From assembly GCF_001657475.1 (NCBI RefSeq), contig NZ_LXEY01000022.1:372001-436000 (forward strand): 64,000 nucleotides of DNA, written 5' to 3'. Position numbers and translations under genes: made by a program. The notes below the pieces were generated by a model. It saw only the letters and a list, made by a program, of their open reading frames with translations, had not been told where the DNA came from and ran no database searches. The stretch comes from Enteractinococcus helveticum. Its GTDB lineage: Bacteria > Actinomycetota > Actinomycetes > Actinomycetales > Micrococcaceae. Numbering within the stretch: the stretch's first letter is position 1; each line of letters begins with the position of its first letter. Positions 50,454 to 54,013 of the stretch are shown here, one piece after another.

Positions 50454-51761
50454 ATGCACGAGACTAAGCCTTCACAACCGGAGCACAACAACCCGTCGGA
50501 TCGATACAACGCCTCATCCGCCGATGCAGGCGACACTGCTCCGCCACCACCGCCTCCGTCTCAGCACGCGTTCGACCCGCAGCCTGATCCCAAACCCCAT
50601 AATGCTGAACCGCGCTCCAAGAGCCGCTTTGGGTGGCCAGTTTTAGCCACCTCCGTCGTGCTCGCCGGTTTGCTTGGCGGCGGTGCTGGGGGACTAGCAG
50701 TGCATTATCTCGACGACGGCGCACCGACCGCATCTAACGAACTCCGAGACTCTGAACAGTTCAACCGCACAGATAACGTCACCGCCACTACAGAAGCCGC
50801 TGCCGTAGCTTCGCCATCGGTGGTGACCCTTTCGGTCGGTGGTGAACAAGCCGAGGGCTCCGGTTCCGGCATTATCCTGGACGACCAGGGCCACATCCTG
50901 ACCAACACCCACGTGGTCACCCTGGGCGGGCAAACGGCCGCTGCCAGTGTGATGGTCCAAACCCATGACGGCGAAGTGTATGAGGCCGAGGTGGTAGGCC
51001 TTGATCCGATGTCGGACCTGGCCGTGATCAAAATTGAGGCCGAAGGTCTTGAGCCCATGGAAATGGGTAGCACCGAAAACCTCAATGTCGGCGACCAGGC
51101 CGTAGCCATTGGCGCGCCGCTGGGCCTGTCTGGCACTGTGACCGAGGGTATCATTTCGAATCTTGATCGCACCATCTCGGTGGCCTCATCTGCGGCACCC
51201 GAGGAACAGGAAGCTCCGCAAGAGGAGAACCCTTTTGAATTCCGGCTCCCAGACAATACCGAGGCACCTGCTGCCCAGGGACAGATTCATCTCAACGTCA
51301 TTCAGTCCGACGCCGCTATCAACCCGGGCAACTCAGGTGGTGCCCTGGTTGATCAAGAGGGCCGTCTCATTGGGATCAACGTGGCCATAGCTACTCGTAC
51401 TGAGGGCAACGTGGGCCTCGGCTTTGCCATTCCGGTGGAATACGCCCAGCGTGTGGCGCAGGAGCTGATCGAAAACGGTGAAGTCTCCCACGGGGTGCTC
51501 GGTGTCACGATCGTGCCGACTGCTCAAGGCAATATCTCCTCGGGCGCTCAAATTGTCGAGGTGGTGGAAGATGGCCCGGCTGCCGGAACCCAACTCCAGC
51601 CCGATGACGTGATTACCGCGGTCAATGGCCAACCCGTCATGGATCCTGGCTCGCTGTCGGCCACTGTGCGGGAATACCCCGGCGGCACAGATGTGGAACT
51701 GACCGTAGTCCGTGACGGTGAAGAGCTGACTGAAACGGTCACCTTGGGCTCCATGAACTAG
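50454..51761 (+). CDS. HtrA/DegP-like serine protease with PDZ domain
   Basis: 435 residues. A Pro-rich cytoplasmic region of about 60, one membrane helix (FGWPVLATSVVLAGLLGGGAG), then an extracytoplasmic trypsin-like domain: His in ILTNTHVVTLGG, Asp in MSDLAVIKIE and Ser in NPGNSGGALVDQEG, so the triad is intact. A C-terminal PDZ follows (GVLGVTIVPT, DGPAAGTQLQPDDVITAVNG). Surface quality-control protease. A Glu-rich insert (EEQEAPQEENPFEF) precedes the Ser region. Alone on its transcript, with its own inverted repeat upstream. Confidence 0.94.
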   Translation: MHETKPSQPEHNNPSDRYNASSADAGDTAPPPPPPSQHAFDPQPDPKPHNAEPRSKSRFGWPVLATSVVLAGLLGGGAGGLAVHYLDDGAPTASNELRDSEQFNRTDNVTATTEAAAVASPSVVTLSVGGEQAEGSGSGIILDDQGHILTNTHVVTLGGQTAAASVMVQTHDGEVYEAEVVGLDPMSDLAVIKIEAEGLEPMEMGSTENLNVGDQAVAIGAPLGLSGTVTEGIISNLDRTISVASSAAPEEQEAPQEENPFEFRLPDNTEAPAAQGQIHLNVIQSDAAINPGNSGGALVDQEGRLIGINVAIATRTEGNVGLGFAIPVEYAQRVAQELIENGEVSHGVLGVTIVPTAQGNISSGAQIVEVVEDGPAAGTQLQPDDVITAVNGQPVMDPGSLSATVREYPGGTDVELTVVRDGEELTETVTLGSMN

Positions 51762-52587: not shown

Positions 52588-53967
52588 CTACTGCTCGAGT
52601 GGCATTTCGACCAGGGCGGTACTGGACGGCGTTTCGGAACCGGTTTCTGGTTCGACGGTAATCCACAACAGCTCATAGTTGTTTACGCCGCGAAATTGGA
52701 CCTCACCGTTTTCCAGTTGCTGGGCGGTGTAGGTGCCCACGGAGACCACCGAGCCGCCGGGTTCTTCAAACAGCCACACCTGATAGCGCTGGTCTTCTTC
52801 CAGCTCTGTTACGTCACTAAACGACAGGTAGGCCACATCTTCTTCAGTCGAGAAGTGTCCGGTGACCGAGGCGCCGTCCATGGTTGCCGAAACGCTGGTC
52901 TGGTCGTCGGCATTGTCCACGGCACTGCGGATGCGCTGGTCGCCGGTATTCAAAAAGATGACGGCGACGATGACCGCAATGATCAACACCGCTCCGACCA
53001 CGATGAACATCGCCCGGCTGCGGCGTTGCTGGTCGGGATCTTCCTCGACCTCATACTCATCCACGGTTTCGATAAACCCAATGCCAACATTTTGTTCGGG
53101 CAATTGCTCAAGCACCGAGTCCAACAGGTTGGCCGGTGGGTGGGCTGCGACCCGGCGATACGCCCAGGTGAGCATCCGTTGAAATAGTGCGGTGCGGGCA
53201 CGCAACTGGGCGGCGATTTCCCGATCCTGGCGATTGATCCAGGCCTCCACCGCCACGGCGTTGTCGTCATCCAGCGCCTGCAGCGCATTGAGCGTGGCTA
53301 GTTCGGTGCCGAGGCCCACGTGCAGATCAGTTTCGACGTCGTCGGAGAACGCAGCTGTTTGCCCGCCGGACGACGATAGGGTGCCGGTCACCCGAGTGGC
53401 CAGCAGTGGATCGGAATCCGCCGAGGTGCTGCCGGTGATTTCCGACAGGTAGTGACGGGTCAACCGCACCGCAGCATCGCGCAGCCGGGACTTCAGCGTC
53501 GGCAGGGCGACGTCGAGTTCTACGGCTGCCTCTTCGACCGTGCGCCCGCCCAACCAGACGGTGGTCAGTGCTAAGGCTTGGGCCTGCGTGAGTGGTTCAA
53601 GTTCGCTCAAGCGAGCGGCAATCGCACGCATGCGATCCACATCGCCCTCCGAGGTGGCATCGGGGCGGTGGTAGCGCCCGGTTTGTTGGGCAATGGAATT
53701 GATCCAGGCGACCACCGTGCGGTCGCGGGCCAGTTCATCGGCGTGGTCGACGTTGAAGTCGAACGTGAAATGCGGGGCCTGGCGCCATAGCGTGACATAG
53801 GCGTCAGTCGTGGCTTGCAGTGCGTCGTCCTCGGCTGGGAATAGTGCGGTGAGCATGCCAAAGACCTGCGGCGAGGTCAGATCGTACAGTGCCGCAAAGG
53901 CGGCGGAGTCGTTGTCGCCGGATTGGAACAGTAATTGCGCTGGGCCAGGAGTGTGTGTTTCCATCAC
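52588..53967 (-). CDS. ECF sigma factor fused to RskA-like anti-sigma factor
   Basis: 459 residues (GTG 53967; ATG 53964 also possible). Residues about 15-60 resemble sigma region 2 (AFAALYDLTSPQVFGMLTAL, ATTDAYVTLWRQAP) and about 115-170 region 4 (LSELEPLTQAQALALTTVWL, VEEAAVELDVALPTLKSRLRDA). Residues 215-300 look like an anti-sigma zinc-less domain (ALQALDDDNAVAVEAWINRQ), followed by a membrane helix (MFIVVGAVLIIAVIVAVIFL) and an extracytoplasmic RskA C-terminal domain (RYQVWLFEEPGGSVVSVGTY). In most actinobacteria SigK-type sigma and RskA are separate genes. A TAAGCT element 5-8 nt before the start hints at a leaderless transcript. Confidence 0.8.
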   Translation of the reverse strand: MMETHTPGPAQLLFQSGDNDSAAFAALYDLTSPQVFGMLTALFPAEDDALQATTDAYVTLWRQAPHFTFDFNVDHADELARDRTVVAWINSIAQQTGRYHRPDATSEGDVDRMRAIAARLSELEPLTQAQALALTTVWLGGRTVEEAAVELDVALPTLKSRLRDAAVRLTRHYLSEITGSTSADSDPLLATRVTGTLSSSGGQTAAFSDDVETDLHVGLGTELATLNALQALDDDNAVAVEAWINRQDREIAAQLRARTALFQRMLTWAYRRVAAHPPANLLDSVLEQLPEQNVGIGFIETVDEYEVEEDPDQQRRSRAMFIVVGAVLIIAVIVAVIFLNTGDQRIRSAVDNADDQTSVSATMDGASVTGHFSTEEDVAYLSFSDVTELEEDQRYQVWLFEEPGGSVVSVGTYTAQQLENGEVQFRGVNNYELLWITVEPETGSETPSSTALVEMPLEQ

Positions 53968-54013
53968 GTCTTAGCTTAGTAACTGCATTGTGTTCGTGCT
54001 GGCTCGGCGCGCC

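Follow-up and report, generated by a model that had tools for sequence, protein, structure and literature searches.

A SigK-RskA fusion, conserved in part of the Micrococcaceae, carries a remodelled sigma half

The SigK-RskA pair of Mycobacterium tuberculosis (ECF18/ECF19) is a two-protein switch, whose RskA is reported as both inhibitor and activator (PMC7509140). One-protein forms of such switches are already known. IutY of Pseudomonas putida (ECF243) combines a sigma part and a membrane anti-sigma part in one protein (PMC5411451, PMC8999054) and is described as a sigma/anti-sigma hybrid activated by proteolysis (PMC5411451). It belongs to Gram-negative iron signalling with an outer-membrane receptor, and its anti-sigma domain is described as periplasmic. 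The ECF48, ECF52 and ECF53 groups of Actinobacteria (e.g. SCO4117) combine a sigma domain with anti-sigma-like and membrane parts on its C-terminal side and are expected to work like IutY (PMC8999054). In PhyR of Alphaproteobacteria, a sigma-like domain is used otherwise than as a sigma factor (PMC5898713).

Here, we describe a protein that has the same two homologous parts as SigK and RskA in the same order. Unlike that pair, it is one chain, its gene has no SigK-type promoter, and the region 2.2 Q-E, the region 2.4 core and the first of the redox cysteines are missing. Set against IutY by description only, it differs in being of the RskA type, in having the anti-sigma helices before the membrane helix and in its remodelled sigma part. 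Neither a zinc-finger family nor a receiver domain is among its Pfam matches, unlike the zinc-finger anti-sigma domain (with one to two helices) described for ECF48, ECF52 and ECF53 and unlike the response regulator PhyR. Fused sigma/anti-sigma proteins are thus known in IutY and predicted in ECF48/52/53, and the RskA-type fusion is a new form of them. Among the open-access titles and abstract openings listed, we found no report of a SigK-RskA fusion, of this gene or of sigma signatures being lost once a fusion has formed.

The gene was found in a window of 64,000 nucleotides from Enteractinococcus helveticum (contig NZ_LXEY01000022.1), and this name is used for the whole stretch analysed. It occupies 52588..53967 as the one uninterrupted frame that was originally predicted, and runs on the minus strand, which the prediction had not stated. 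The product has 459 amino acids from GTG at 53967 or 458 from ATG at 53964, which the GTG directly precedes. The ATG is common to all eight same-genus genes and the codon ahead of it varies, being GTG in five and GAG in three. Hence, the ATG is the more likely start.

Starting at the N terminus, the protein has a part resembling the sigma factor SigK, then an anti-sigma domain, a single membrane helix and lastly RskA_C; all are encoded on the minus strand. The sigma region 2-like domain (53656..53940, residues 9–103), assigned by the SigK alignment, loop length and charge, and constraint, contains an enlarged acidic loop with remodelled regions 2.3–2.4 at residues 67–103. The sigma region 4-like helix-turn-helix (53440..53604, residues 121–175) retains KSRLRD. 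The putative anti-sigma domain of the RskA N-terminal type spans 53077..53352 (residues 205–296) with approximate limits. The single membrane helix is at 52951..53007 (residues 320–338) and the RskA_C match at 52624..52980 (residues 329–447), largely extracytoplasmic.

Of 198 related genomes, among them that of the window, 150 gave a match to the whole-protein query. The sigma and anti-sigma parts share one open frame in at least 25 of the 198 genomes and in six genera, so the survey of homologues finds the fusion conserved in relatives. Each of these frames is present in the ORF list. The window's genus (g1) has eight of the fusions, the genera g4, g15 and g13 have five each, and g17 and g2 have one each; in g13, all five matches as listed begin in region 4 and the remainder was taken from the ORF. 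All 25 frames are without inner stops, and four of these genomes are listed as one contig. The carriers include Enteractinococcus coprophilus (92% identity) and Yaniella halotolerans (79%). In many other genera of the same search, the sigma and anti-sigma matches are separate (split).

Among 394 genomes of the class, whole-length matches at E <= 1e-30 occur only in the window genome, the fusion genome G020 and G275 of another family. The rows of the window genome (G000) and G020 show one stop since the matches include the final stop codon, and both frames are open. We considered G275 as a second, independent fusion and rejected it. In its stretch (L068, 931–2283, plus strand), the sigma gene ends in TGA 36 bases ahead of the next start in the same frame, so the two genes are a split pair. 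This same-frame pair is possibly a pre-fusion arrangement, from which a fusion could begin.

An artefact or a decaying pseudogene, arising from a missed stop, an assembly error or relaxed selection, was weighed as well. A contamination of 6.11% is given for the window genome, and the single TGA of L068 illustrates how a lone change might create a spurious fusion. Against it are the open frames in 25 genomes of six genera, including E. coprophilus and Y. halotolerans, and the dN/dS of about 0.06 over the whole gene among eight same-genus genes, a rough ratio as dS is near saturation. These refute the artefact reading, and we reject it as having a negligible probability. The missed stop or start that could have undone the original prediction fails likewise, as the fusion is open in at least 25 genomes. 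The fused gene is real and under purifying selection.

For the alignments, 24 fusions were used, with the 25th (L015) left out for its unclear start. They were set beside 25 split rows, which include a split pair from another family of the same order (L030) and of which 20 are match segments rather than whole genes. The NCBIfam SigK model PRK09646 matches residues 9–170 of the window protein at 65.7 bits and E 4e-18, a score far under its cut-off of 226 bits, and matches 24/24 fusions at E <= 0.001. The solved SigK structure 4nqw_A matches the window protein at E 3.5e-8. Profile to profile, the fused sigma parts match the split SigK with a probability of 99.9 and E 1.3e-34. Thus, the sigma-like part proposed for residues 1–180 is clear. 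The profile of the 24 fusions matches both chains of the SigK-RskA complex, 4nqw_A at E 1.5e-28 and the RskA chain 4nqw_B at E 1.7e-6, and the latter match is in keeping with the proposed anti-sigma-like domain.

The proposed region 2 and region 4 segments hold by SigK homology. By Pfam, region 4 of the window protein is sub-threshold (15.5 bits versus the cut-off of 24.1), and Sigma70_r2 is absent from the listing at E up to 10, within which the HMMER filters lose most matches above about 0.1. At E <= 0.1, Sigma70_r2 is found in 7/24 fused versus 25/25 split rows, and Sigma70_r4_2 in 18/24 versus 25/25. The RskA-type extracytoplasmic domain is confirmed by RskA_C, which scores 54.1 bits against the cut-off of 29.4 and is found in 24/24 fusions at E <= 0.1. 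RskA_N scores just 7.9 bits against the cut-off of 27, being found in 15/24 fusions at E <= 0.1. Hydropathy gives one hydrophobic membrane helix in every one of the 24. A structure model from seven sequences had a mean pLDDT of 47 and was too poor to use, its helices and strands falling as expected. As judged from these sequence matches, the protein is a true SigK-RskA fusion, conserved in relatives.

In the maximum-likelihood tree of the 49 sigma parts, the 24 fusions lie on one side of one branch with a support of 100/99. The branch is present in 99% of bootstrap trees and stable after dropping each of four row sets. Since the tree is unrooted and long branches are flagged, a single origin of the fusion is likely, short of proved. 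A single merger of sigK with rskA, in a common ancestor of some of the Micrococcaceae, is the probable history.

The 24 fused and 25 split sigma parts were compared column by column. The Q-E of region 2.2 contacts the core enzyme. The Q is present in 0/24 fused versus 25/25 split proteins, and the E in 0/24 versus 24/25, the remaining one being D. In the window, the codons at 53803..53808 (minus strand, residues 53–54) read T-D where the split SigK have Q-E (24) or Q-D (1). A D takes the place of the E in 8/24 fusions, all of the window's genus, where the pair is T-D; this change from E to D is conservative and mild. Six other sigma factors of the window genome could be aligned, among which the E is present in 6/6 and the Q in 4/6, with S in its place in the other two. 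Conservation between primary and ECF sigma factors is reported for the region 2 residues in contact with the beta-prime coiled coil, the residues not being named in that passage (PMC6411747).

One more sigma gene of the window genome (L043, G000:C22:281961-282161) was omitted from the latter comparison for the stop inside. It is a sigma70 region 2 match with one internal TAG and may be a broken sigma gene.

In the region 2.4 motif HRRAVD, R105, A106 and D108 (L026 numbering) are found in 0/24 fused versus 25/25 split proteins. The divergence of region 2 that the original prediction had noticed is thus a loss of both the Q-E and the R-A-x-D core throughout the 24 fusions. The loop ahead of region 2.4 has 15–49 residues in the fusions versus 8 in the split proteins. 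The mean net charge of fused versus split parts is −3.5 versus +0.2 for the loop, +0.4 versus +2.7 for helix 2.3–2.4 and −0.4 versus +2.0 for region 4.

The redox cysteines are changed as well. Cysteines 133 and 183 of M. tuberculosis SigK are described as needed for activation by RskA (PMC7509140). A cysteine at the Cys133 position is found in 0/24 fused versus 24/25 split proteins, with the fusion L016 having one a column off. At the Cys183 position, 6/7 readable split rows have C and the fusions have none. However, a naturally cysteine-less SigK of Nocardia is reported as active (PMC7509140), so not much follows from the missing cysteines by themselves.

Region 4 is better kept, with R162 in 24/24, K158 in 20/24, and S159 and R160 each in 19/24; the KSR is found in 19/24 fusions. 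The five genomes of g15 (L016–L019 and L025) are without R160, and their KSR is lost, which speaks against DNA binding there. From the sequences, the g15 fusions appear to be the furthest departure from a sigma factor. In region 2, the tryptophans are conserved in 24/24 fusions, and one of them presumably aligns with W81 of SigH. In SigH, W81 stacks on the flipped −9 base and the specificity loop reads a −10 base, as described (PMC6411747). The enlarged loop of the fusions is roughly at the position of that specificity loop, so promoter specificity may be altered instead of abolished.

This leads to the main rival explanation, an active sigma factor of new promoter specificity that stays anchored in the membrane as a single chain until regulated proteolysis frees it, as with IutY, and with the enlarged loop reading a new −10 element. 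IutY, as described, is a precedent (PMC5411451, PMC8999054), and the retention of the tryptophans in 24/24 and the KSR in 19/24 would fit. The missing region 2.2 Q and E in 24/24, the failure of 17/24 to match Sigma70_r2 at E <= 0.1, the positive charge lost in both DNA-binding parts and the additional loss of KSR in one genus argue against it.

The conservation of the remodelled part can be read for this rival too. In the window's genus, residues 67–103 are 95% identical, ranking 9th of 422 windows of 37 residues, and the windows that overlap them are the most conserved of the protein; over residues 83–103, dN/dS is 0.01, again a rough ratio given the near-saturated dS. The simple decay of the sigma part is thereby rejected for the window's genus, while it may apply to g15, where the KSR has also been lost. 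Between g1, g17 and g2, the loop with regions 2.3–2.4 is 38% identical, versus 53% for each of regions 2.1–2.2 and region 4. In g4, g13 and g15, it is conserved about equally to or below those regions. Given the 38% between genera, the strong constraint on the loop and regions 2.3–2.4 is a within-genus result. Hence, each genus seems to keep its own version of them.

The promoter region bears on the same question. CCATCC-N16-CGAATA occurs upstream of the split sigK in L026, and we take it to be of the M. tuberculosis SigK promoter type, for which our literature search yielded no confirming paper. We searched 67 loci for CATCC-N14-19-CGAAT. With the 16-base spacer, it is found upstream on the gene's strand in 21/25 split loci, the others being L051, L054, L063 and L064, of which the L054 stretch may end short of the promoter. 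With any of these spacers, it is found in 0/25 fused loci (L001–L025). The matches with other spacers are in L041 and in the wider stretches of two fusion genomes (L031 and L035) far from the gene.

Within 300 bp upstream of the window gene, the best match to the SigK promoter is no better than in shuffled sequence. Many of the split genes thus appear to regulate themselves, in contrast to the fused ones. The split pair L068 of another family, whose sigma gene has the Q-E and the region 2.4 motif by eye, is also without a SigK-type match. Genome-wide, the strict CCATCC-N16-CGAATA counts of 0–3 in the window's genus and 0–6 in other genera fail to separate fused-only from split genomes as a regulon test, so the promoter argument is confined to the locus.

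A TA[AT]GCT box is found near the start in 8/8 same-genus genes, in g17, in g2 and in 4/5 loci of g4. It is missing from all g13 and g15 loci; by exact patterns, 7/25 split loci have it. The box is common to some fused and some split genes (L026: 849–866). In the window, it is the −10-like TAAGCT at 53973..53978 (minus strand), directly 5′ of the start, which matches the consensus and keeps the same position in 8/8 same-genus genes. The box is perhaps the −10 element of a promoter with a very short leader.

The gene neighbourhood agrees in part with a single origin. A PIG-L gene converges on the fusion in the window, L009, L010 (where an ORF intervenes), L011, L017 and L020; in two split loci, L026 and L027, it converges on rskA. 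It was called by Pfam for the window and by eye elsewhere; in the split locus L029, the ORF at this position is by eye not PIG-L. Adjoining PIG-L and two genes from the fusion is an HtrA/DegS-like trypsin-PDZ protease with an N-terminal hydrophobic stretch (50454–51761, plus strand). Such an HtrA-like protease is also near the fusion in L009, L020 and L031, by sequence or position. It is a possible candidate for the site-1 protease by position only.

Peptidase_M50 genes are present in the window genome, where their presence proves nothing specific. They would suit an active sigma factor freed by regulated proteolysis, as would the strong conservation of the loop and regions 2.3–2.4 in the window's genus. 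The SigK-type promoter missing ahead of the gene adds to the points against, and we regard this explanation as rather unlikely. The simpler proposal of a tethered, otherwise ordinary sigma factor in need only of cleavage is not supported, as the Q-E, the region 2.4 motif and the SigK-type promoter are gone in all the fusions examined.

Separate SigK genes can coexist with the fusion. A separate SigK-like match of 37–49% identity was found in 8/23 fusion genomes, the search covering 23 of the 25 with G002 and G004 left out. In the one fusion genome examined by its ORF list, an RskA-like gene is by eye beside the separate SigK-like gene. In G041 of g4, which bears the fusion, sigK and rskA are additionally present as a separate pair with a four-base overlap (L063, 706–2129, minus strand), so both systems are present together. 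In the six genomes searched of the window's genus, nothing besides the fusion exceeds 29% identity.

These matches matter to a third explanation, a mimic in cis resembling PhyR. The pseudo-sigma would fill its own anti-sigma domain, and a signal would let this domain trap or release another sigma factor. PhyR, as described, is an example of mimicry by a sigma-like domain (PMC5898713). The sigma homology kept while the Q-E, the region 2.4 motif and the positive charge are lost would agree with this, and so would the separate SigK-like genes in 8/23 genomes. However, the window's genus has no match above 29%, which would leave only some other sigma factor as its partner there, and the KSR retained in 19/24 would be needless for a pure mimic. 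We consider this explanation improbable.

The loss of the region 2 marks, together with the region 4 DNA-reading helix kept in most fusions, makes us prefer a conserved, re-purposed single-chain membrane sensor with a pseudo-sigma output, to which we give an even chance. More specifically, and tentatively at somewhat short of even, the SigK-derived pseudo-sigma would signal without an RNA polymerase holoenzyme, either by region 4 DNA binding alone or by sigma mimicry in cis.

Mechanistically, the sigK-rskA pair would have been fused first and its sigma half remodelled afterwards, no longer working as a SigK-type sigma factor. RskA_C would sense outside the cell, and the anti-sigma domain would fold back onto the pseudo-sigma inside. 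A signal, perhaps through cleavage by an HtrA-like protease at site 1 and an M50 protease at site 2, would alter or free the cytoplasmic part. No normal holoenzyme would form: this part would most likely act by binding DNA with the helix-turn-helix that region 4 has kept, or alternatively as a sigma mimic competing for an anti-sigma surface.

The split and fused forms, partly beside the same neighbour, offer a natural experiment: they let one follow the merging of a two-protein transcription switch into a single protein and see which sigma residues it sheds. Should the sigma half have ceased to guide RNA polymerase to promoters, the models that score the fusion as SigK would mislead. The fusion also raises the question of whether an anti-sigma factor can remain functional after its sigma factor has disappeared, a point relevant to the dual role reported for RskA (PMC7509140).
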